From: Albidovulum marisflavi
GTDB taxonomy: Bacteria > Pseudomonadota > Alphaproteobacteria > Rhodobacterales > Rhodobacteraceae
DNA: 64,000 nucleotides
Assembly: GCF_025751435.1 (NCBI RefSeq)
Contig: NZ_JAOWKY010000005.1
Coordinates: 62,001 to 126,000, forward strand
Direction: 5' to 3'
Shown: piece after piece, positions 22,259 to 32,156 of the stretch
Layout: each line of letters starts with the position of its first letter
Numbering within the stretch: the stretch's first letter is position 1
Position numbers and translations under genes: made by a program
The notes under the pieces: generated by a model
Seen by the model: the letters and a program-made list of their open reading frames with translations, nothing else
Told to the model about the DNA's origin: nothing
The model's database searches: none

Positions 22259-24760
22259 TCAGCCGTTGACGCGGATACGCTCGTTCTTCGGGTCGAACGG
22301 GCTGTCCTCGACGACCTCGGCATCCCATTCCTGGCGCAGCATCCGCACCTTCAGCTTGGTGCCGACGGCGGCCAGATCCGGACGGACGTAGCCCATGCCG
22401 ATCTGCTTGCCGAACGCGACCGAGTAGCCGCCCGAGGTCAAGCGCCCGATCTTCTCGCCGTTCAGCAGCAGCGCTTCCTTGCCCCACGGATCGGTGTCCG
22501 ACGGACCGTCGATCAGAAGCGTGACGCACATCGCGCGGACGCCGGTGTCGATCATCGCCTGTTTGCCGTGGAAGTCCTTCGACATGTCGATGAACCGGTC
22601 AAGACCAGCTTCCGCCGGGGTGGCGTCGCGGCCCAGCTCGGTGCCGAAGGCGCGGTAGGACTTCTCCTGGCGCAGCCAGTTCTGCGCGCGCGCGCCGACC
22701 AGCTTCATGCCGTGCTTTTCGCCCGCCGCAAGCAGCAGGTCCCAAAGGTAGCGCTGCATCTCGATCGGGTGGTGAAGTTCCCAGCCAAGCTCACCGGTGT
22801 AGGCCACGCGGATCGCGTTGACCGGGCACATGCCCAGCTCGATCTTGCGGGCGGAAAGCCAGGGGAAGCGCTTGTTCGACAGCGCGGTTTCCGGCTCTGC
22901 GTCCTTGATGATCTCTTTCAGGATGTCGCGCGACTTCGGACCGGCGATGGCGAAGACGCCCCACTGGGTGGTCACATCGTTGATATCGATGTGGCCGCCA
23001 CCGTTCGCCATGAAGTCCTCGGCCGACTTGCGCAGGAAGTCCGCGTCATACGCGGTCCAGGCGCCGGCGGAGACAAGGTAGTAGTCGTTCTCGCCGTTGC
23101 GGACGATGGTGTATTCGGTCCGCGTCGTGCCTGCCGACGTCAGCGCGTAGGTCAGGTTGATGCGGCCGATCGCCGGCAGCTTGTTGCAAGTGAACCAGTC
23201 TAGGAACGCCGTCGCGCCGGGTCCGCGCACGGTGTGCTTGGTGAAGGCGGTCGCGTCGATCAGGCCGGCGGTCTCGCGGATCGCCTTGGCTTCATCGACG
23301 GCGTATTGCCACCAGGCGCCGCGCCGGAACGAGCGGGAATCGTGGTCGAACGACGCGGGCGCGTCCTTCGGGCCGTAGTAGTTGGGGCGTTCCCAGCCGT
23401 TCACCTGGCCGAACTGCGCGCCAAGCGCCTTCTGGCGGTCATAGACCGGCGCGGTGCGCAGCGGGCGGCAGGCTTCGCGCTCTTCGTCCGGGTGGTGCAG
23501 AACGAAGACGTGGTCGTAGCACTCTTCGTTCTTGCGCGCGGCATATTCGGTCGTCATCCAGCTGCCGTAGCGCTTGGGGTCAAGCGAGGCCATGTCGATT
23601 TCGGCTTCGCCGTTGACCATCATCTGCGCCAGGTAGTAGCCGGTACCGCCCGCCGCGGTGATCCCGAAGCTGAAGCCTTCGGCCAGCCACATGTTGCGCA
23701 GGCCCGGGGCGGGGCCCACCAGCGGGTTGCCGTCCGGCGTGTAGCAGATCGGGCCGTTGAAGTCGTCCTTCAGACCCACGGTTTCCGAGGTCGGGATCCG
23801 GTGGATCATCGACATGTACTCTTCCTCGATCCGCTCCAGGTCGAGCGGGAAGAGGTCGGCGCGGAACGATTCCGGCACGTCGTAGAGGAAGCGCGCCGGG
23901 GCGCCCTTTTCATAGGGGCCAAGGATCCAGCCGCCGCGCTCTTCGCGGACATACCACTTGGCGTCGGCGTCGCGCAGCACCGGGTGCTCCGGGTTGCCGG
24001 CGGCGCGCCAGGCCTGAAGTGCCGGATCGGGCTCGGTGACGATGTACTGGTGCTCGACCGGGATCGCCGGGATCTTGATGCCCAGAAGGCGGGCCGTGCG
24101 CTGAGCGTGGTTGCCGGTGGCGGTGACGACGTGTTCGGCGTGGATTTCAGCAGTTTCCTCGCCGGGCACAAGGTTGCCGCCCTTTTCGACCATCTTCGTG
24201 ACCGAGACGATCCATTCGGAGCCGGTCCAGCGGTAGCCGTCCACCTGCCACTTGCGCTCGATCGTGACGCCCAGCTGGCGCGCGCCCTTGGCCATGGCCT
24301 GGGTCACGTCGGCGGGGTTGATGTAGCCGTCCTGCGGGTGGAAGAGCGCGCCTTTCAGGTCCTCGGTCCGGACCAGCGGCCAGCGCTCCTTGATCTGGGC
24401 GGGGGTCAGGAATTCATGGTAGACCCCGGCGGTTTCTGCGACCGACGAATAGAGCATGTATTCGTCCATCCGCGCGTCGGTCTGCGCCATGCGCAGGTTG
24501 CCCACGACCGCGAAGCCCGCGTTCAGGCCGGTTTCCGCCTCGAGCGTCTTGTAGAAGTCGACCGAGTACTTGTGGATGTGCGTCGTCGCGTAGGACATGT
24601 TGAACAGCGGCAGAAGGCCGGCGGCGTGCCAGGTCGAGCCCGAGGTCAGCTCGTCCCGCTCCAGCAGCATCGTGTCCCATCCGGCTTTCGCAAGGTGATA
24701 GGCGATCCCGCAGCCGACGGCTCCGCCGCCGACGACTAGGGCTTTGACATGGGTTTTCAT
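22259..24760 (-). CDS. Dimethylglycine/sarcosine dehydrogenase-like flavoprotein (DAO + GcvT)
   Basis: The 833-residue protein starts MKTHVKALVVGGGAVGCGIA after a GAGGAG site. Its N-terminal DAO domain carries the GGGAVGCGIAYHLAKAG motif and the STWHAAGLL segment, whose His carries covalent FAD in this family. The C-terminal half is an FAO_M linker plus GcvT folate-binding domain (TAFTKHTVRGPGATAFLDWF, VRVAYTGELGWELHHP, LGRDATPAEAGLDRFIDM). These enzymes demethylate N-methyl amino acids and pass one-carbon units to tetrahydrofolate. The substrate is not fixed by the sequence. It lies 125 bases downstream of the rutR-like gene on the same strand. Confidence 0.9.
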   Translation of the reverse strand: MKTHVKALVVGGGAVGCGIAYHLAKAGWDTMLLERDELTSGSTWHAAGLLPLFNMSYATTHIHKYSVDFYKTLEAETGLNAGFAVVGNLRMAQTDARMDEYMLYSSVAETAGVYHEFLTPAQIKERWPLVRTEDLKGALFHPQDGYINPADVTQAMAKGARQLGVTIERKWQVDGYRWTGSEWIVSVTKMVEKGGNLVPGEETAEIHAEHVVTATGNHAQRTARLLGIKIPAIPVEHQYIVTEPDPALQAWRAAGNPEHPVLRDADAKWYVREERGGWILGPYEKGAPARFLYDVPESFRADLFPLDLERIEEEYMSMIHRIPTSETVGLKDDFNGPICYTPDGNPLVGPAPGLRNMWLAEGFSFGITAAGGTGYYLAQMMVNGEAEIDMASLDPKRYGSWMTTEYAARKNEECYDHVFVLHHPDEEREACRPLRTAPVYDRQKALGAQFGQVNGWERPNYYGPKDAPASFDHDSRSFRRGAWWQYAVDEAKAIRETAGLIDATAFTKHTVRGPGATAFLDWFTCNKLPAIGRINLTYALTSAGTTRTEYTIVRNGENDYYLVSAGAWTAYDADFLRKSAEDFMANGGGHIDINDVTTQWGVFAIAGPKSRDILKEIIKDAEPETALSNKRFPWLSARKIELGMCPVNAIRVAYTGELGWELHHPIEMQRYLWDLLLAAGEKHGMKLVGARAQNWLRQEKSYRAFGTELGRDATPAEAGLDRFIDMSKDFHGKQAMIDTGVRAMCVTLLIDGPSDTDPWGKEALLLNGEKIGRLTSGGYSVAFGKQIGMGYVRPDLAAVGTKLKVRMLRQEWDAEVVEDSPFDPKNERIRVNG

Positions 24761-24885: not shown

Positions 24886-25518
24886 TTACAGCGCCCCGAT
24901 CCCGCGCAGGATGATCGTCTTGACGCTGGCCTTCGCCGCCTTCCACTGCTGATCTGAAAGCGGCATCCCGCCGTTCAGCGTCTCGATCTGATGGCCGAAG
25001 TCGGCGTAATGCTGCGTTGTCGCCCAAAGCATGTAAAGCAGGTGGTTGGGGTCGATGGGCGCCATCTTGCCCTCGTCGATCCACTTTTGGATCAATCGGG
25101 CCCGTCCGGCGGTCCAGTCGCGCAGCGTGGTTTCCAGGTAGTCCTGGATGACCGGTGCGCCGTGCATGACCTCGCTTGCCCAGACCTTTGAGCCGAACGG
25201 ATGACGGCGCGAGATTTCCATCTTGGCATCAATGTAGGCGCCGATCGCCTCGACCGGTCCGGGCGCATTGTCGAAGCTGTCGGCGGCGTGCAACCAGATT
25301 TCGAAGATCTGCTGCACCACCTTGCGGTAAAGCTCTTCCTTCGTCGCAAAATAGTAGTGCAGGTTGGCCTTGGGCAGCCCGGCCATGTCGGCGATCAGTT
25401 GCATCGTCGCGCCGCCGAAACCGGCTTCGGCAAAGACCTTTTCGGCCGCCGCCAGGATCCGCGCCTCGTTTTCCTGCCGGATCGCGCCGCGCTTCGATAT
25501 GCGTTCGACTTCGGTCAT
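24886..25518 (-). CDS. rutR: RutR-like TetR-family pyrimidine regulator
   Basis: The 210-residue repressor has an N-terminal TetR helix-turn-helix (ATMQLIADMAGLPKANLHYYFATKEELYRKVV). Its ligand domain contains WATTQHYADFGHQIE, nearly the E. coli RutR segment, as well as GKMAPIDPNHLLYMLW. RutR binds uracil or thymine and then releases DNA, so the inferred ligand is a pyrimidine. The ATG at 25518 has GGAGG only two bases upstream; an in-frame TTG at 25527 is the alternative. The operator at 25536 is 17 bases from the start codon, indicating autoregulation, and the divergent operon encodes pyrimidine breakdown. Confidence 0.9.
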   Translation of the reverse strand: MTEVERISKRGAIRQENEARILAAAEKVFAEAGFGGATMQLIADMAGLPKANLHYYFATKEELYRKVVQQIFEIWLHAADSFDNAPGPVEAIGAYIDAKMEISRRHPFGSKVWASEVMHGAPVIQDYLETTLRDWTAGRARLIQKWIDEGKMAPIDPNHLLYMLWATTQHYADFGHQIETLNGGMPLSDQQWKAAKASVKTIILRGIGAL

Positions 25519-25535
25519 GGCCTCCAAGATAATCG

Positions 25536-25551
25536 TTGACCGGTTGGTCAG
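25536..25551. promoter_or_regulatory. RutR operator 1
   Basis: TTGACCGGTTGGTCAG matches the RutR consensus TTGACCA-NN-TGGTCAA at 12 of the 14 specified positions. It lies immediately upstream of the rutR-like start codon, where bound protein would block its own transcription. Confidence 0.78.
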
Positions 25552-25569
25552 GTTGTGGTGCTTTTAACC

Positions 25570-25585
25570 TTGACCATATGGTCAG
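25570..25585. promoter_or_regulatory. RutR operator 2
   Basis: TTGACCATATGGTCAG matches the RutR consensus at all but the last specified position. It is 34 bases centre-to-centre from operator 1 and 58 bases upstream of the pydC start, well placed to control the catabolic operon. Confidence 0.87.
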
Positions 25586-25643
25586 GAAGCGAGTCGTCGC
25601 AAGGGGCATCAAGATCCCGGTCGGGCGACCAAGGGAGATAGCC

Positions 25644-26894
25644 ATGGCAGCACCCGGAGAGAACCTCCGCATAGATCCCGCGCGACTGTGGGACAGCCTG
25701 ATGGAGATGGCCAAGATCGGTCCCGGCGTCGCGGGTGGCAACAACCGCCAGACCCTGACCGACGCCGACAGCGAGGGCCGGCACCTGTTCAAGAAGTGGT
25801 GCGATGCGGCGGGCATGACCATGGGCGTCGACACGATGGGCAACATGTTCGCGACCCGCGCGGGCGAGGACCCGGACGCGGCGCCGGTTTACATGGGCTC
25901 TCACCTTGATACCCAGCCCACGGGCGGCAAGTACGACGGTGTCCTTGGGGTTCTGGGCGCGCTGGAATGCGTGCGCACGATGAACGACCTTGGCATCAGG
26001 ACGAAACATCCGATCGTCGTCGTCAACTGGACGAACGAGGAGGGAACGCGCTTTGCCCCCGCCATGCTCGCCTCGGGCGTGTTCGCGGGCAAACACACGC
26101 AGGACTTTGCCTACGACCGCGAGGATCACGACGGCAAGAAATTCGGCGACGAGTTGAAACGCATCGGCTGGGTCGGCGATGAGCCGGTCGGCGACCGCAA
26201 GATCCACGCGCTGTTCGAATTGCATATCGAGCAGGGTCCGATCCTTGAGGCCGAGGGCAAGGACATCGGCGTCGTCACCCACGGGCAAGGCCTGCGCTGG
26301 ATCGAGTGTACGGTGACGGGCAAGGAGAGCCACACCGGATCGACCCCGATGCACATGCGCAAGAACGCAGGCCGGGGTTTGGCGCTGGTCACCGAGCTTG
26401 TCCACGAGATCGCGATGAAGAACCAGCCGAACGCGGTGGGCGCGATCGGCCATATCGATGTCTATCCCAACAGCCGCAACATCATCCCGGGCCGCGTCGT
26501 CTTTACCGTCGACATGCGGACCCACATTCTGCCCAAGCTGAACGCGATGGTCGATGAGCTGATGGCGCGCGCCCCCAAGCTCTGCGCCGATATCGGCGTG
26601 GGGTTCGAGGCCAGGATCGTCGGCCAGTTCGACCCGCCCGCCTTCGACGAGGGCTGCGTGGCGGCCGTGCGCAACGCGGCCGAGCGGCTGGGCTACAGCC
26701 ATATGGATATCGTCTCGGGCGCCGGCCATGACGCCTGCTGGATCAACGACGTAGCACCCACCGCGATGATCATGTGCCCCTGCGTGGACGGTCTGTCCCA
26801 CAACGAGGCCGAGGAGATCACCCCGGAATGGGCGGCTGCGGGCACGGATGTTCTCCTGCACGCGGTCCTGGAGACGGCGGAGGTCGTGGGGTGA
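25644..26894 (+). CDS. pydC: N-carbamoyl-beta-alanine amidohydrolase / Zn-dependent carbamoylase
   Basis: M20-family zinc hydrolase of 416 residues that removes the carbamoyl group from N-carbamoyl-beta-alanine, the last step of reductive uracil breakdown. Family segments are clear: YMGSHLDTQPTGGKYDGVLGVLGAL, VNWTNEEGTRFAPAMLASGVFAG, LFELHIEQGPILEAEG, ESHTGSTPMHMRKNAG and SGAGHDACWINDVAPTAMI. The metal ligands His, Asp, Glu and His are present. It starts at the ATG at 25644 after an AAGGGAG site. The next gene is dihydropyrimidinase, supporting the ureidopropionase role over L-carbamoylase or allantoate hydrolase. Confidence 0.9.
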   Translation: MAAPGENLRIDPARLWDSLMEMAKIGPGVAGGNNRQTLTDADSEGRHLFKKWCDAAGMTMGVDTMGNMFATRAGEDPDAAPVYMGSHLDTQPTGGKYDGVLGVLGALECVRTMNDLGIRTKHPIVVVNWTNEEGTRFAPAMLASGVFAGKHTQDFAYDREDHDGKKFGDELKRIGWVGDEPVGDRKIHALFELHIEQGPILEAEGKDIGVVTHGQGLRWIECTVTGKESHTGSTPMHMRKNAGRGLALVTELVHEIAMKNQPNAVGAIGHIDVYPNSRNIIPGRVVFTVDMRTHILPKLNAMVDELMARAPKLCADIGVGFEARIVGQFDPPAFDEGCVAAVRNAAERLGYSHMDIVSGAGHDACWINDVAPTAMIMCPCVDGLSHNEAEEITPEWAAAGTDVLLHAVLETAEVVG

Positions 26895-26902
26895 GCGCAA
26901 AG

Positions 26903-26954
26903 CCGGGGGCGCTGCCCCCGGACCCCCGGGATATTTGAGAAAAGAAGAAGGGGC
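26903..26954 (+). repeat. Intergenic hairpin element, copy 1
   Basis: A CCGGGGGC-GCT-GCCCCCGG hairpin is followed by ACCCCCGGGATATTTGAGAA and AAGAAGAAG. A diverged copy with the same order of parts lies at 29308-29382. I believe similar elements are widespread between genes in Rhodobacteraceae. Here it separates pydC from dihydropyrimidinase. Confidence 0.7.
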
Positions 26955-26988
26955 GGATCGCCGCCATTCTGACAGGAGAGTGAAAGTA

Positions 26989-28446
26989 ATGGCGACCACA
27001 GTCATCAAGAACGGCACCATCGTCACCGCCGATCTGACCTACAAGGCGGATGTGCTGGTCGAGGGCGGCAAGATCACCCAGATCGGCGAGAACCTGAAAG
27101 GTGACAAGGTGCTCGACGCCACCGGCTGCTATGTCATGCCCGGCGGCATCGACCCGCATACGCATCTGGAGATGCCCTTCATGGGCACCTACTCAAGCGA
27201 TGATTTCGAAAGCGGCACCCGGGCGGCGCTGGCGGGCGGGACGACGATGGTGGTGGACTTCGTGCTGCCCTCGCCGGGGCAGGGGCTGCTGGATGCCAAG
27301 CAGATGTGGCACAACAAGTCTGGCCGGGCGAATTGCGATTACAGCTACCACATGGCCGTTACCTGGTGGGGCGAGCAGGTCTTTGACGAGATGAAGACGG
27401 TGGTCGAAAAGGAAGGCATCACCACCTTCAAGCATTTCATGGCCTACAAGGGCGCGCTTATGGTCAATGACGATGAGATGTACGCCTCGTTCCGCCGACT
27501 GGCGGAACTGGGCGGCATCGCGCTGGTGCATGCCGAAAACGGCGACGTGGTGGCAGAGTTGCAGCGCAAGCTTCTGGAAGAGGGAAACACCGGCCCCGAG
27601 GCGCACGCCTATTCCCGCCCCCCGCAGGTCGAGGGCGAGGCCACGAACCGCGCGATCATGATCGCGGACATGGCGGGTGTGCCGCTTTACGTCGTCCACA
27701 CCTCCTGCGAGGAGGCGCACGAGGCGATCCGACGCGCGCGGATGCAGGGCAAGCGCGTCTGGGGCGAGCCCTTGATCCAGCACCTGACGCTGGATGAAAG
27801 CGAGTATTTCAACCAGGACTGGGATCACGCCGCCCGCCGCGTGATGTCGCCGCCTTTCCGCAATCGCAAGCACCAGGAAAGCCTGTGGGCGGGCCTGCAA
27901 TCCGGGTCGCTTTCCGTGGTCGCGACCGACCACTGCGCCTTCACGACCGAACAGAAGCGGTTTGGGGTCGGCGACTTCACCAAGATCCCGAACGGAACGG
28001 GGGGGCTTGAGGACCGGATGCCGATGCTCTGGACCCACGGGGTCGCGACCGGCCGGCTGACACCGAACGAATTCGTCGCGGTCACCTCGACCAACATCGC
28101 CAAGATCCTGAACTGCTATCCGCGCAAGGGCGCGGTGCTGGTGGGCGCGGATGCCGACCTTGTCGTTTGGGACCCCGAGAAGGAGAAGGTGATCAGCGCC
28201 GGGACCCAGCAGTCAGCGATCGACTACAACGTGTTCGAAGGGCAGAAGGTGAAGGGTCTGCCGCGTTATACGCTGACGCGCGGGGTCGTTGCGGTGAACG
28301 ACGGCAAGGTCGAGACGCGCGAGGGTCACGGCGAGTTCGTGCGGCGCGAGGCCGGCAACCCGGTCAACAGGGCGCTGTCGAGTTGGAAGGAACTGACCGC
28401 GCCGCGCCCGGTCGCGCGCAGCGGCATCCCGGCCAGCGGGGTCTGA
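26989..28446 (+). CDS. hydA: Dihydropyrimidinase (D-hydantoinase)
   Basis: Opens the ring of dihydrouracil or dihydrothymine to give N-carbamoyl-beta-amino acids. The 485-residue amidohydrolase has the metal motif GIDPHTHLEMPF near residue 57, the lysine carbamylation segment FKHFMAYKGALMVNDDEMY, the further ligand His in LVHAENGD, and VVATDHCAF with the catalytic Asp. It starts at the ATG at 26989 after AGGAGAG. It sits between pydC and an importer, in the order expected for the reductive pathway. The dihydropyrimidine dehydrogenase genes for the first step are not in this window. Confidence 0.95.
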   Translation: MATTVIKNGTIVTADLTYKADVLVEGGKITQIGENLKGDKVLDATGCYVMPGGIDPHTHLEMPFMGTYSSDDFESGTRAALAGGTTMVVDFVLPSPGQGLLDAKQMWHNKSGRANCDYSYHMAVTWWGEQVFDEMKTVVEKEGITTFKHFMAYKGALMVNDDEMYASFRRLAELGGIALVHAENGDVVAELQRKLLEEGNTGPEAHAYSRPPQVEGEATNRAIMIADMAGVPLYVVHTSCEEAHEAIRRARMQGKRVWGEPLIQHLTLDESEYFNQDWDHAARRVMSPPFRNRKHQESLWAGLQSGSLSVVATDHCAFTTEQKRFGVGDFTKIPNGTGGLEDRMPMLWTHGVATGRLTPNEFVAVTSTNIAKILNCYPRKGAVLVGADADLVVWDPEKEKVISAGTQQSAIDYNVFEGQKVKGLPRYTLTRGVVAVNDGKVETREGHGEFVRREAGNPVNRALSSWKELTAPRPVARSGIPASGV

Positions 28447-28448
28447 CG

Positions 28449-29249
28449 GTGAAGGATACTGTCGCCACCGCAAGGCCGGTGATCGAGGCGAAGGGTCTGG
28501 GTCTGACGTTCCAGACCAACGACGGCCCCGTCCACGCTCTGACGGATGTGAACCTCACGATCGGCAAGGGCGAGTTCGTCAGCTTCATCGGGCCGTCGGG
28601 TTGTGGCAAGACGACGTTTCTTCGGTGTATCGCCGCGCTGGAACATCCGACGCAAGGGGCGCTGACGGTCAACGGCACCTCACCCGATGCGGCGCGTCAG
28701 GCGCGGGCCTATGGCTATGTCTTCCAGGCGGCGGGGCTTTATCCCTGGCGCACGATTGCAGGGAATGTGAAACTTCCGTTGGAAATAATGGGATATTCCA
28801 AGGCCGAGCAGAACGAACGTGTTCGAAAAGTGCTATCCTTGGTGGACCTCGACGGCTTCGGGAAGAAGTTCCCGTGGCAGCTTTCAGGGGGGATGCAGCA
28901 GCGCGCCTCGATCGCGCGTGCCCTGGCCTTCGATGCCGACATCCTGTTGATGGACGAACCCTTCGGCGCGCTGGACGAAATCGTGCGCGACCGGCTGAAC
29001 GAAGAGCTGCTGAAGCTTTGGGCGGCGACGGGTAAGACCATCGGTTTCGTCACCCATTCCATCCCCGAGGCGGTCTATCTGTCCACGAGGATCGTCGTAA
29101 TGAGCCCACGGCCGGGACGGATCACCGACGTGATCGAAAGCACGTTGCCAAAGGAACGGCCTCTGGAGATCAGGGATTCTAGGGAATTCATCGAGATCGC
29201 GCACCGCGTGCGGGAAGGGCTGCGGGCGGGGCACGGCGATGAGGTCTGA
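28449..29249 (+). CDS. Pyrimidine-type ABC importer, ATP-binding subunit
   Basis: The 266-residue ATPase has Walker A GPSGCGKTT, Q-loop FQAAGLYPWRT, signature LSGGMQQRASIARAL, Walker B ILLMDEPFGALDE and the switch His in VTHSIPEA. It belongs to the nitrate/sulfonate/taurine (SsuB/TauB) subfamily. The start is a GTG two bases after the dihydropyrimidinase stop. Together with the next three genes it forms a complete importer; given the flanking pydC/hydA and RutR operators, pyrimidines or their dihydro forms are the inferred cargo. Confidence 0.92.
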   Translation: MKDTVATARPVIEAKGLGLTFQTNDGPVHALTDVNLTIGKGEFVSFIGPSGCGKTTFLRCIAALEHPTQGALTVNGTSPDAARQARAYGYVFQAAGLYPWRTIAGNVKLPLEIMGYSKAEQNERVRKVLSLVDLDGFGKKFPWQLSGGMQQRASIARALAFDADILLMDEPFGALDEIVRDRLNEELLKLWAATGKTIGFVTHSIPEAVYLSTRIVVMSPRPGRITDVIESTLPKERPLEIRDSREFIEIAHRVREGLRAGHGDEV

Positions 29250-29307
29250 GCTTCGCATGAACCCATTCGGCCGACACCGCGGACATCGCCCGCCCTGGGC
29301 CGGGTGC

Positions 29308-29382
29308 GGGGGGCTGTCTGCCCCCCGGTCGCCGGCCGCGCCGGCGACGCCCCCCGAGGATACTTGGGAAAAGAAGACGGGG
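29308..29382 (+). repeat. Intergenic hairpin element, copy 2
   Basis: It holds two stem-loops, GGGGGGC-TGTCT-GCCCCCC and GTCGCCGG-CCGCG-CCGGCGAC, then CGAGGATACTTGGGAAAAGA and AGACGGGG. The tail matches copy 1 at 26903 (GGATATTTGAGAAAAGAAGAAG) with few changes, while copy 2 has an extra second hairpin. It lies between the ATPase and first permease genes, and its purine-rich end abuts the permease ribosome site. Confidence 0.7.
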
Positions 29383-29390
29383 CGGGTTGC

Positions 29391-30254
29391 ATGAGGTCGG
29401 TCCTGCCCATCCTTGCCGTGCTTCTTGCCATCGTCGCGGTCTGGTACATCGCGGCGATCAGGATGAACTCGACCTGGACCTACGACCAGGCGGCACGGGC
29501 GGAAACCGAGGTTTCCTTCGCCGAGGTCGTGGTCGACACGATGGCGCAGGAGCGCCCGGTTCTGCCCGCGCCGCATCAGGTGGCGGTTGGCCTGTGGGAG
29601 GGTTTGTTCGGTCAGAAGTTCACTTCGAAGCGCAGTCTTGTCTATCATGGCTGGATCACGCTCTCGGCCACGCTGGTCGGGTTTGCGATCGGCACGGGGC
29701 TGGGTATCCTGCTGGCCGTGGGGATCGTTCACAACCGGGCGATGGACCTGTCGGTCATGCCCTGGGCGATCGCAAGCCAGACGATCCCGATCCTGGCCAT
29801 CGCGCCCATGGTGATCGTGGTTCTGGCATCGGTCGGCGTGACCGGGCTTTTGCCGAAGGCGGTGATTTCCGCCTATCTGTCGTTCTTTCCGGTGGTCGTG
29901 GGCATGGTAAAGGGGCTCAGAAGCCCGGACCGCATGCAGCTTGACCTTCTCAAGACATATAACGCGAGCCGTTGGGCCGCGTTCTGGAAGTTGCGGCTTC
30001 CCGCGTCGATGCCTTACCTTTTCGCCTCGCTCAAGGTGTCGATGGCGGCGTCGCTTGTCGGCGCCATCGTGGGTGAGCTGCCGGCCGGGGCGACTTCCGG
30101 ATTGGGCGCGCGGCTTCTGTCGGGCAGCTACTATGGCCAGACGATCCAGATATGGGCCGCGTTGTTCGCGGCGGCGATACTGGCGGCCGGATTGGTCATC
30201 GTGATCGGCGCGATCGAGAAGGTGGCGCTACGTCGGATGGGAATGGTGCGATGA
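29391..30254 (+). CDS. Pyrimidine-type ABC importer, permease 1
   Basis: A 287-residue membrane protein with an N-terminal helix (MRSVLPILAVLLAIVAVWYI), then a BPD_transp_1 domain with about six helices. The cytoplasmic coupling segment reads MQLDLLKTYNASRWAAFWKLRLPASMPYLFASLKVSM, the EAA-loop form found in SsuC-type permeases. Its ATG follows directly on the second hairpin element. It ends in an ATGA overlap with permease 2, so the two are translated together, probably as a heterodimer. Confidence 0.9.
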   Translation: MRSVLPILAVLLAIVAVWYIAAIRMNSTWTYDQAARAETEVSFAEVVVDTMAQERPVLPAPHQVAVGLWEGLFGQKFTSKRSLVYHGWITLSATLVGFAIGTGLGILLAVGIVHNRAMDLSVMPWAIASQTIPILAIAPMVIVVLASVGVTGLLPKAVISAYLSFFPVVVGMVKGLRSPDRMQLDLLKTYNASRWAAFWKLRLPASMPYLFASLKVSMAASLVGAIVGELPAGATSGLGARLLSGSYYGQTIQIWAALFAAAILAAGLVIVIGAIEKVALRRMGMVR

Positions 30255-31102
30255 CGTGGCTTTGGGGTGCGATCCTGTTCTGGCTGGGTGCCTGGGGCCT
30301 CAATGCCTGGGCCGCGAACCAGCCCTTCGCGCGGACCCGCGCGGGCAAGCTGGCGATACCCGCTCTGTTCGGCGTGACGCTGCTGGTTCTTTGGGAAGGC
30401 ATTGTGCGCGGGCTGGACGTGCCTGGCGTCATCCTGCCCGCGCCGTCCGTCATATGGGGAACGATCACGACCTCTGTCCCGACGCTTTGGCAGGATTTCG
30501 TCCAGACGATCTTGAAGGGCGGGCTGTCGGGCTATGTGATCGGTTGTGGCGCGGCGATCGCGACGGCGATCGCCATCGACCGCTCGCCCTTCCTGCAAAA
30601 GGGCCTGCTGCCGGTCGGAAATTTCGTCGCGGCCCTTCCCATCGTCGGCATCGCGCCGATCCTTGTCATGTGGTTCGGCTTCGACTGGCAGTCGAAGGCG
30701 GCGGTGGTCGTCGTGATGGTCTTCTTCCCCGTGCTGGTGAACACGGTGGCGGGGCTAGCCGCGACCGACCGGATGCAGCGCGACCTCATGGCGACCTATT
30801 CGGCCAGCTATTGGCAGACCCTGATGAAACTGCGTCTGCCGGCGGCCATGCCGTTCATCTTCAACGGGCTGAAAATCGCGACGACCCTTGCCCTGATCGG
30901 GGCGATCGTTGCCGAATTTTTCGGCTCTCCCATCAAGGGGATGGGATTTCGCATCTCGACCGCCGTTGGCCAGCTTGCGCTGGACATGGTTTGGGCGGAG
31001 ATTGCCGTGGCGGCCCTGGCCGGTTCGGCATTCTACGGGCTTGTGGCGCTGATCGAGAAAGGCGTCACCTTCTGGCATCCGTCGCAGCGGGCGCGGAGCT
31101 GA
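30251..31102 (+). CDS. Pyrimidine-type ABC importer, permease 2
   Basis: A 283-residue inner-membrane permease starting MTWLWGAILFWLGAWGLNAW. The EAA-type loop is MQRDLMATYSASYWQTLMKLRLPAAMPFIFNGLKIA, closely parallel to permease 1, so the pair probably arose by duplication and works as a heterodimer with the 28449 ATPase. Its start overlaps permease 1 by four bases. The binding protein follows 18 bases downstream. Confidence 0.92.
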   Translation: MTWLWGAILFWLGAWGLNAWAANQPFARTRAGKLAIPALFGVTLLVLWEGIVRGLDVPGVILPAPSVIWGTITTSVPTLWQDFVQTILKGGLSGYVIGCGAAIATAIAIDRSPFLQKGLLPVGNFVAALPIVGIAPILVMWFGFDWQSKAAVVVVMVFFPVLVNTVAGLAATDRMQRDLMATYSASYWQTLMKLRLPAAMPFIFNGLKIATTLALIGAIVAEFFGSPIKGMGFRISTAVGQLALDMVWAEIAVAALAGSAFYGLVALIEKGVTFWHPSQRARS

Positions 31103-31120
31103 CAACAGGGGAGCAATGAC

Positions 31121-32104
31121 ATGATGAAATGGACGGTTTCGGTTCTTGCGGCGGGGCTTCTGGCCACCGCGGCGCAGGCGGCCGACGACGTGACGCTGCA
31201 GCTGAAATGGGTCACGCAAGCCCAGTTCGCAGGCTATTACGTCGCCAAGGACAAGGGCTTCTATGAGGAAGAGGGGCTGAACGTCACGATCCTTCCGGGC
31301 GGACCGGACATCGCGCCCACGCAGGTGATTGCGGGCGGCGGCGCCGACGTGATGATCGACTGGATGCCCTCGGCGCTTGCGGCGCGGGAAAAGGGCCTGC
31401 CGCTGGTCAACATCGCGCAACCCTTCAAGTCCTCGGGGATGATGCTGACCTGCCTGAAGGAAACGGGCGTCACGGGGCCTGAGGATTTCAAGGGCAAGAC
31501 GCTGGGCGTCTGGTTCTTCGGCAACGAATACCCGTTCCTGTCGTGGATGGCGACGCTTGGCATTCCGACCACGGGTGGCGCGGACGGAGTCGAGGTTCTG
31601 AAGCAGGGTTTCAACGTCGACCCGCTTCTTCAGAAGCAGGCGGCCTGCATCTCGACCATGACCTACAACGAATACTGGCAGGTCATCGATGCCGGGATAA
31701 GCCCGGATGACCTCGTCACCTTCAAGTACCAGGACGAGGGCGTGGCGACGATGGAGGACGGGCTTTACGTGCTTGAGGGCAACCTTCAGGACCAGGCGTT
31801 CGAAGACAAGATGGTTCGCTTCGTCCGCGCGTCGATGAAGGGATGGAAGTGGGCCGAAGAAAACCCGGACGAGGCGGCGATGATCGTTCTGGACAACGAC
31901 GAAACCGGCGCCCAGACCGAAACCCACCAGAAGCGGATGATGGGCGAGATCGCCAAGTTGACGGCCGGCTCCAATGGCGCGCTTGATCCTGCCGACTACG
32001 AACGCACGGTTGCGACGCTTCTTGCAGGCGGATCGGATCCTGTGATCTCGAAAGCGCCCGAAGGGGCCTGGACGCACCAGATCACGGACAAGGCGCTTCA
32101 GTAA
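31121..32104 (+). CDS. ABC importer periplasmic substrate-binding protein (NMT1/THI5-like)
   Basis: The 327-residue protein has a cleavable signal peptide ending TAAQA, then an NMT1/THI5-like domain: VTLQLKWVTQAQFAGYYVAKDKGFYEEEGLNVTI, VIAGGGADVMIDWMPSALAAR, GKTLGVWFFGNEYPFLSWM. This family binds pyrimidine-like compounds such as thiamine precursors, riboflavin or formylaminopyrimidine, which fits the catabolic genes of the operon. The specificity is inferred from context. A strong terminator follows. Confidence 0.9.
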   Translation: MMKWTVSVLAAGLLATAAQAADDVTLQLKWVTQAQFAGYYVAKDKGFYEEEGLNVTILPGGPDIAPTQVIAGGGADVMIDWMPSALAAREKGLPLVNIAQPFKSSGMMLTCLKETGVTGPEDFKGKTLGVWFFGNEYPFLSWMATLGIPTTGGADGVEVLKQGFNVDPLLQKQAACISTMTYNEYWQVIDAGISPDDLVTFKYQDEGVATMEDGLYVLEGNLQDQAFEDKMVRFVRASMKGWKWAEENPDEAAMIVLDNDETGAQTETHQKRMMGEIAKLTAGSNGALDPADYERTVATLLAGGSDPVISKAPEGAWTHQITDKALQ

Positions 32105-32126
32105 ACCTTTGCACCTGAAAGGCTCG

Positions 32127-32156
32127 GCGCGGGACGGCAACGTCCCGCGCCTTTTT
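32127..32156 (+). terminator. Strong intrinsic terminator of the pyrimidine operon
   Basis: A perfect 10-bp GC-rich stem (GCGCGGGACG, 32127-32136) closed by a GCAA tetraloop pairs with 32141-32150 and is followed by CTTTTT. It lies 23 bases after the binding-protein stop. Confidence 0.93.

Follow-up and report, generated by a model that had tools for sequence, protein, structure and literature searches.

In Escherichia coli the uracil-responsive TetR repressor RutR controls the rut operon of the oxidative Rut route together with rutR itself, and an excerpt of PMC10891134 names five residues by which it contacts uracil. Repressors of this kind have also been connected with the reductive route: the title of Hidese et al. 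2012, as cited in PMC7332683, presents PydR of Pseudomonas putida as a RutR-like repressor of the reductive pyrimidine pathway, and Leyn et al. 2016 (PMC5343134, consulted as an excerpt) predicted RutR regulons for pyrimidine catabolism in 68 proteobacterial genomes (13 groups), with taxon-specific changes of the motif. The locus considered here lies at positions 24,886 to 32,156 of a stretch of 64,000 nucleotides of Albidovulum marisflavi (hereafter the window), where a RutR-lineage TetR gene, here called rutR1, is divergent from pydC, a dihydropyrimidinase gene (hydA) and four genes of an ATP-binding cassette (ABC) importer, in the gene order and with the families given in an earlier note on this DNA.

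The likeness to the E. coli system comprises membership of PF08362, the uracil contacts, a palindromic operator of 16 base pairs (bp) and an autoregulatory position of the boxes; unlike E. coli RutR, which serves the oxidative route, the regulator here has the reductive route as its presumable target, no RutA was found in the genome, and RutR1 falls below the NCBIfam cut-offs for RutR. With PydR, compared by title and not by sequence, the locus shares a RutR-like repressor placed on the reductive pyrimidine pathway, whereas the adjacent target is here pydC–hydA–importer and not the dehydrogenase gene that the title assigns to PydR; with the regulons of Leyn et al., compared apart from their gene lists, it shares RutR as a regulator of pyrimidine catabolism. 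Since PydR control and the regulons of 68 genomes are already in print, the rewiring of RutR to the reductive route that the earlier note had proposed is known in kind, so that its novelty falls away, although the predicted control itself is well supported by the sequence comparisons. What goes beyond the known RutR-type control of this route is that two RutR lineages occur together with two spellings of the operator; in the open-access literature, apart from the gene lists that Leyn et al. give for RutR, no title was found that deals with RutR regulators in pairs or with the preT box described below, and this is no claim of absence from print.

RutR1 and its probable doubled operator

RutR1 probably controls the pydC–hydA–importer operon, which would thereby serve the reductive route. 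In a profile search the protein scores 177 bits against PF08362, above the gathering score of 25 bits, which places it among the RutR/YcdC-like TetR proteins, and its closest solved chain is that of E. coli RutR (3loc, E value 1.7e-45). It must be held against the name that RutR1 remains under both NCBIfam cut-offs for RutR (TIGR03613, 207 bits vs 368; PRK15008, 174.2 vs 230), as does RutR2, the second regulator of the genome (226.5 vs 368 and 216 vs 230 bits, respectively).

The sequence TTGACCA-NN-TGGTCAA (TTGACCANNTGGTCAA), a 16-bp palindrome given in the earlier note, is taken here to be the RutR operator consensus. Such a palindrome in a divergent promoter, characteristic of the RutR lineage, is found twice between rutR1 and pydC, with 2 and 1 mismatches, and both operators reported by the earlier note, at 25536 and 25570, are borne out by their conservation. 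When up to 3 mismatches are allowed, TTGACCANNTGGTCAA is matched 6 times in the window where 1.12 matches are expected, a number reached by 0 of 100 shuffles. Over the whole genome, on the other hand, 42 matches per strand at up to 2 mismatches hardly exceed the 37 and 34 of two controls, so that the case stands on the position of the boxes and on their conservation; for the same reason the genome-wide scan was rejected as the sole definition of a regulon.

Position and conservation were followed in 80 relatives, the best loci kept of 506 found in a named genome collection, the nearest being that of Defluviimonas sediminis (L032). The pydC gene is divergent from an adjacent rutR1 in all 80. 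Under the strict consensus with 3 mismatches allowed, a pair of boxes is present in 77 of the 81 promoters (that of the window among them) and a single box in 4, the spacing of the pairs being 34 bp in 56, 33 in 20 and 32 in 1; a degenerate pattern with at most 1 mismatch gives two boxes in 75/80 relatives and one in 5/80. In the 81 aligned promoters the mean share of the top base is 0.93 in operator 1 and 0.95 in operator 2, as compared with 0.69 for the rest of the promoter taken together and 0.76 for the 18 positions of this rest that lie between the boxes. The gene of the importer's binding protein, the last of the operon, is on the same strand in 55/55 loci with 9.5 kb or more of room, while the remaining 25 loci were too short to be counted. 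The features of the locus are the following.

24886..25518, minus strand: rutR1, TetR repressor of the RutR lineage; ATG at 25518, TTG at 25527 also open as a start
25536..25551, plus strand: RutR-type operator 1, TTGACCGGTTGGTCAG; 2 mismatches to TTGACCANNTGGTCAA
25570..25585, plus strand: RutR-type operator 2, TTGACCATATGGTCAG; 1 mismatch to TTGACCANNTGGTCAA, 34 bp from operator 1
25644..26894, plus strand: pydC, probable N-carbamoyl-beta-alanine amidohydrolase (beta-ureidopropionase) of the M20 family, named from its closest solved chains
26989..28446, plus strand: hydA, dihydropyrimidinase; TIGR02033, 607.7 bits, cut-off 393.25
28449..29249, plus strand: importer ATPase; PF00005, GTG start read by eye
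29391..30254, plus strand: importer permease 1; PF00528, start read by eye
30251..31102, plus strand: importer permease 2; PF00528, 4-base overlap with permease 1, start deduced from the translation
31121..32104, plus strand: importer periplasmic binding protein of the NMT1/THI5 family; PF09084, 132.8 bits
32118..32156, plus strand: possible operon terminator, a GC-rich inverted repeat with a T run, seen by eye and carrying no program score

In the mechanism that we infer, RutR1 would, when pyrimidine is lacking, occupy the boxes at 25536 and 25570 and silence both rutR1 and the pydC–hydA–importer operon; uracil (or thymine) entering its pocket would cause its release, whereupon importer and hydrolases would be made. 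PreT–PreA, encoded on another contig, would convert uracil to dihydrouracil. From dihydrouracil, HydA and then PydC yield beta-alanine, CO2 and ammonia.

Some observations on the surroundings may be added. A GC-rich inverted repeat followed by GGATAYTTGRGAAAAGAAGA stands in two gaps inside the operon, at 26905–26948 before hydA and at about 29305–29377 before permease 1; the tail pattern is matched twice in the window when up to 3 mismatches are allowed (0.00 expected), a longer head pattern matching the first copy only, and the element may be a repeated intergenic one. A promoter scan between the genes gave a single site (25505, plus strand, 9/12 matches) that is not used in the interpretation. 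Directly behind rutR1, at 22259–24760 on the minus strand, lies a flavin adenine dinucleotide (FAD)-dependent oxidoreductase fused to a GcvT-like domain, kin of sarcosine and dimethylglycine dehydrogenases; since among the 80 relatives only L032 has the same neighbour (95% identity), this gene may mark a point of rearrangement.

The reductive route and the importer substrate

In what follows G000 is the source genome, and other G and L numbers denote genomes and loci of the comparison sets. A profile search of G000 finds preA on contig C4 (731 bits, NCBIfam cut-off 335), whereas RutA, and with it the oxidative Rut pathway, was not found there, the best match having 20.1 bits (E value 5.7e-4) for a cut-off of 498.3; thus, what can be seen is the reductive pathway, with its first enzyme away from the operon, and its dehydrogenase, dihydropyrimidinase and beta-ureidopropionase are all encoded in the genome. 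The preT–preA pair occupies about 367.5–370.1 kb of G000:C4, preT being named from its position before preA and its GltD-like family (no NCBIfam model is above cut-off), and tail to tail with it lies RutR2, the second of the two PF08362 genes of G000. The module had been called complete in the earlier note, a word that does not suit this locus, as the note's own remark on the dehydrogenase shows, and the note left it open whether the dehydrogenase lies elsewhere or the imported compound is already reduced: later enzymes, importer and regulator are indeed together, the first enzyme belongs to C4, and the search confirms the former alternative. With preT–preA elsewhere in the genome, nothing requires that the imported compound be already reduced.

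The separation of preT–preA from the rutR1 operon (contigs C4 and C6) may come from an assembly break. Of the 80 relative loci 58 show RutR2, 38 show preA and 34 show preT, on contigs of which many are too short to reach these genes, and by hand count preA is near the operon in 43 of 60 regions from the same family. Within the genus, 22/22 genomes have a PF08362 gene, 21 have two or more, and preA is found in 21/22. In G139, of the same genus, a single contig carries two regulator hits separated by about 110 kb, and preA adjoins the second, RutR1 being told there by score only; in G120 and G121, also of this genus, the paired regulators share a contig with preA but are separated from it by about 100 kb and 400 kb, distances which suggest that preA moved more than once within the genus.

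The names given to the enzymes leave room for a different operon, one devoted to hydantoins or allantoin-like ureides instead of uracil, in which a hydantoin importer would feed HydA as a hydantoinase and PydC as a carbamoylase. Dihydropyrimidinases and hydantoinases are one family; the closest solved chains of PydC are 8apz (E value 7.2e-202) and 8aq0, named N-carbamoyl-L-amino-acid hydrolase; its top NCBIfam match bears the name allantoate amidohydrolase (685 bits against a cut-off of 452), and PydC passes the cut-off of the hydantoinase/carbamoylase subfamily TIGR01879 as well. Nonetheless, PydC also matches 8c46, named N-carbamoyl-beta-alanine amidohydrolase, at an E value of 1.9e-194, the closest solved chain of HydA is the dihydropyrimidinase 3dc8 (E value 5e-275), RutR1 retains the uracil contacts, and preA is within reach of the operon in the relatives and family regions counted above, so that a hydantoin or ureide operon is rated as unlikely.

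As to the importer of the pyrimidine operon, its assignment to uracil has against it that the 31121 protein has as its nearest solved chain 3ix1 (E value 1.6e-21), which binds N-formyl-4-amino-5-aminomethyl-2-methylpyrimidine, a thiamin-precursor pyrimidine. It belongs to the same binding-protein family, NMT1/THI5, as the ThiY-type importers of thiamin precursors; unlike these, however, it is the constant partner of pydC–hydA and of a RutR-type regulator, and because of this constant company we infer that it more likely binds a pyrimidine base, reduced or not. A protein that is a partner in 55/55 loci with enough room should not be called a thiamin-precursor or sulfonate transporter from its family alone. 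Two transporters turned up in excerpts of the literature, neither bearing on RutR: a "pyrimidine ABC transporter", named in PMC11698098 in the legend of a figure that concerns ocean microbes, and the nucleoside ABC transporter SPO2802-2805 of Ruegeria pomeroyi (PMC9870897).

RutR2 and two operator spellings

At about −70 the preT promoters carry a 16-bp element, mostly TTTACCRNTTGATAAA, that has the RutR layout with G3 changed to T and C14 to A; in G000 this differently spelled RutR-type box before preT–preA reads TTTACCGCTTGATAAA, and the element occurs there once at up to 1 mismatch. Both RutR2 and this box lie outside the window, to which the earlier note was confined. The pattern TTGATAAA is present in 33/33 preT promoters (32 relatives and that of G000), one being partly masked and one having an altered left half. 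In 42 preT promoters of the family, TTTACC-type halves are found on both sides in 37, on one side in 3 and on neither in 2, one of these two, L150, having in addition TTTACCAGTTGATTAA nearer the gene. Where, in other alphaproteobacteria, BLAST puts the neighbouring regulator nearer to RutR1, the preT box is of the TTGACC type in 9/10, the tenth having none within 1 mismatch, and no box is present in the one case with a regulator nearer RutR2. Since the operator spelling at preT thus tends to follow the neighbouring regulator, the preT box is assigned to RutR2, an assignment further supported by seven single-regulator loci (L133, L139, L145, L146, L147, L149 and L150) in which the symmetric TTTACCANNTGGTAAA takes the position of the RutR box between rutR2 and pydC.

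Because preT–preA carry a differently spelled box and adjoin RutR2, the regulon may be divided, RutR2 possibly answering for the first step and RutR1 for the later steps and the importer. In its full form, which we put forward tentatively and rate as possible short of probable, two RutR lineages would share one pathway, RutR2, the regulator usual in the family, holding preT–preA through the TTTACC-type box and RutR1 having taken over the hydrolytic steps and the importer through a doubled TTGACC-type operator.

The TTTACCRNTTGATAAA element could instead be bound by a regulator of another kind or form part of the promoter, given that one of its halves contains TTGATA, near a −35 hexamer, and that the RutR2 gene of G000 has no RutR-type box in front: within 4 mismatches, none resembling TTGACCANNTGGTCAA occurs in the 280 bases around its start, and autoregulation of RutR2 in G000 was rejected on this account. 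Within 1 mismatch a preT-type match is present in 96 of 120 family genomes, a figure to be read with the fact that a reversed control pattern matches many genomes too; perfect matches number, by hand count, 82 in 120, i.e., 79 in the 102 genomes with a PF08362 gene and 3 in the 18 giving no PF08362 hit. These three (G028, G033 and G118) keep a perfect TTTACC-type match in incomplete assemblies (86, 74 and 84%, respectively) and weigh against the assignment to RutR2 unless the assemblies miss the regulator. An unrelated site is nevertheless unlikely in view of the 7-2-7 layout common to the element and the RutR box, of TTTACCANNTGGTAAA filling the RutR position at rutR2–pydC, and of the ordinary TTGACC-type box that stands before preT where the regulator is nearer RutR1.

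How far the two spellings belong to two regulators can be judged from the family. By hand count, 22 of the 102 genomes with a PF08362 gene have two or more (G000 included), and regions were read in 60 of the 80 single-regulator genomes and in 18 of the 21 other genomes with several. The regulator is of the RutR2 type by best match in 60/60 of the former, while RutR1 is present in 15/18 of the latter, G052, G062 and G106 having only RutR2 within the stretch read; in all, of 79 genomes including G000, 16 have RutR1, and 63 have RutR2 with no RutR1 seen in the regulator regions read. Of 58 promoters in which pydC is faced by RutR2, 56 have one box and 2 have none. Where it is faced by RutR1 there are, in the family regions and within a limit of 400 bases, two boxes in 10/15, one in 4 and none in 1; when the limit is lifted and the window added, the 16 promoters comprise 12 with two, 3 with one and 1 with none. 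Boxes under RutR1 are of the TTGACC type in 24/24 of the family regions and in 155/155 of the named set, two sets that overlap in species and are not independent, as against 36/56 under RutR2 at pydC, the remaining 20/56 having at least one TTTACC-type half.

The same counts bear on the possibility that RutR1 and RutR2 are redundant, either of them binding every box, with no division of labour between them, a reading for which a tentative case can likewise be made. Indeed, the five uracil-contact residues (W77, Y97, W167, Q171 and Q179) are invariant in 96/96 RutR1 and 113/113 RutR2 (93 and 113 distinct sequences, respectively, over the last 150 residues), which speaks of conservation and not of binding, and hybrid boxes such as TTTACCGAATGGTCAA (L136) and TTGACCATCTGGTAAA (L151) are found under a lone RutR2. 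Since in single-regulator genomes RutR2 alone evidently serves both spellings, the spelling alone excludes neither RutR2 from the RutR1 boxes nor RutR1 from preT, and the associations of boxes with regulators are confounded by shared descent; both points weigh against the main reading given here. On the other hand, residues 51–56 of the helix-turn-helix differ consistently, being mostly PKANLH in RutR1 and mostly SKPNLL in RutR2, the TTGACC type is exclusive under RutR1 and partial under RutR2, and it is RutR1 that the doubled box accompanies, all of which argues against redundancy.

The two regulators fall apart on a tree of 114 sequences, which has a midpoint root, an unsettled bootstrap and a long branch for E. 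coli RutR. On one branch (99/92) are 57 RutR2 and 2 sequences of a class survey (L240 and L254), L240 belonging to the same family; a separate branch (100/99) holds 30 RutR1 and 20 sequences of the survey, one of these likewise being L240, and E. coli RutR lies on the RutR1 side along with four survey sequences (L242, L246, L253 and L257) that are nearer RutR2 by BLAST. In that survey 34/190 genomes have PF08362 genes, 31 of them above the cut-off, and G256, of another family, has both regulator types side by side. Beyond the family, RutR1 has its closest relatives among the regulators of other alphaproteobacteria. The idea that RutR1 is a recent tandem duplicate of RutR2, prompted by their adjacency in L159, L161, L167, L169 and L172, was rejected because the lineages stand apart on the tree; RutR1 would be either an older paralog retained by few or a later arrival, between which the tree does not decide.

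Wider set of boxes and significance

Places in G000 with up to 1 mismatch to the consensus are the window, deoC (C4:90094), an importer of the BMP family (C6:47011) and five more (three on C2, one on C5 and one on C7). The RutR-type palindrome before the BMP-family ABC importer (L031, 9012; G000:C6:47011) reads TTGACCTTTTGGTCAA in G000, and that before deoC and an aldehyde dehydrogenase gene (L030, 6095; G000:C4:90094) reads CTGACCAATTGGTCAG; this dehydrogenase has 784 residues, and several models match two stretches of it. From its family the BMP importer probably carries nucleosides, the annotation search giving in NCBIfam only a weak match to a B6 importer. With the degenerate pattern and up to 1 mismatch, a box is present in 21/30 BMP and 22/30 deoC promoters, those of G000 included, the expectations from shuffles being 0.1 and 0.05. 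The distances are mostly similar (about −130 to −160 for the BMP box) and the centres of the boxes variable; as 22 of the 30 members of each set are from the same genus, descent explains part of this conservation. No box within 2 mismatches was found in 5/30 BMP and 5/30 deoC promoters, and those lacking it at both genes are G011, which has no PF08362 gene, but also G007 and G012, which have one.

If the division of the regulon is real, the boxes of the BMP importer and of deoC would add a third layer to it, and the family would offer an example from nature in which half a regulon has come under a new regulator and its operators have changed to match. The genomes form a comparative series, from one regulator with mostly one box to two regulators with mostly two boxes, and with two spellings, in which the joint evolution of a repressor and its operators can be studied. 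For the Rhodobacteraceae, the divided regulon would amount to a specific prediction of the sensor that governs each step of pyrimidine use.

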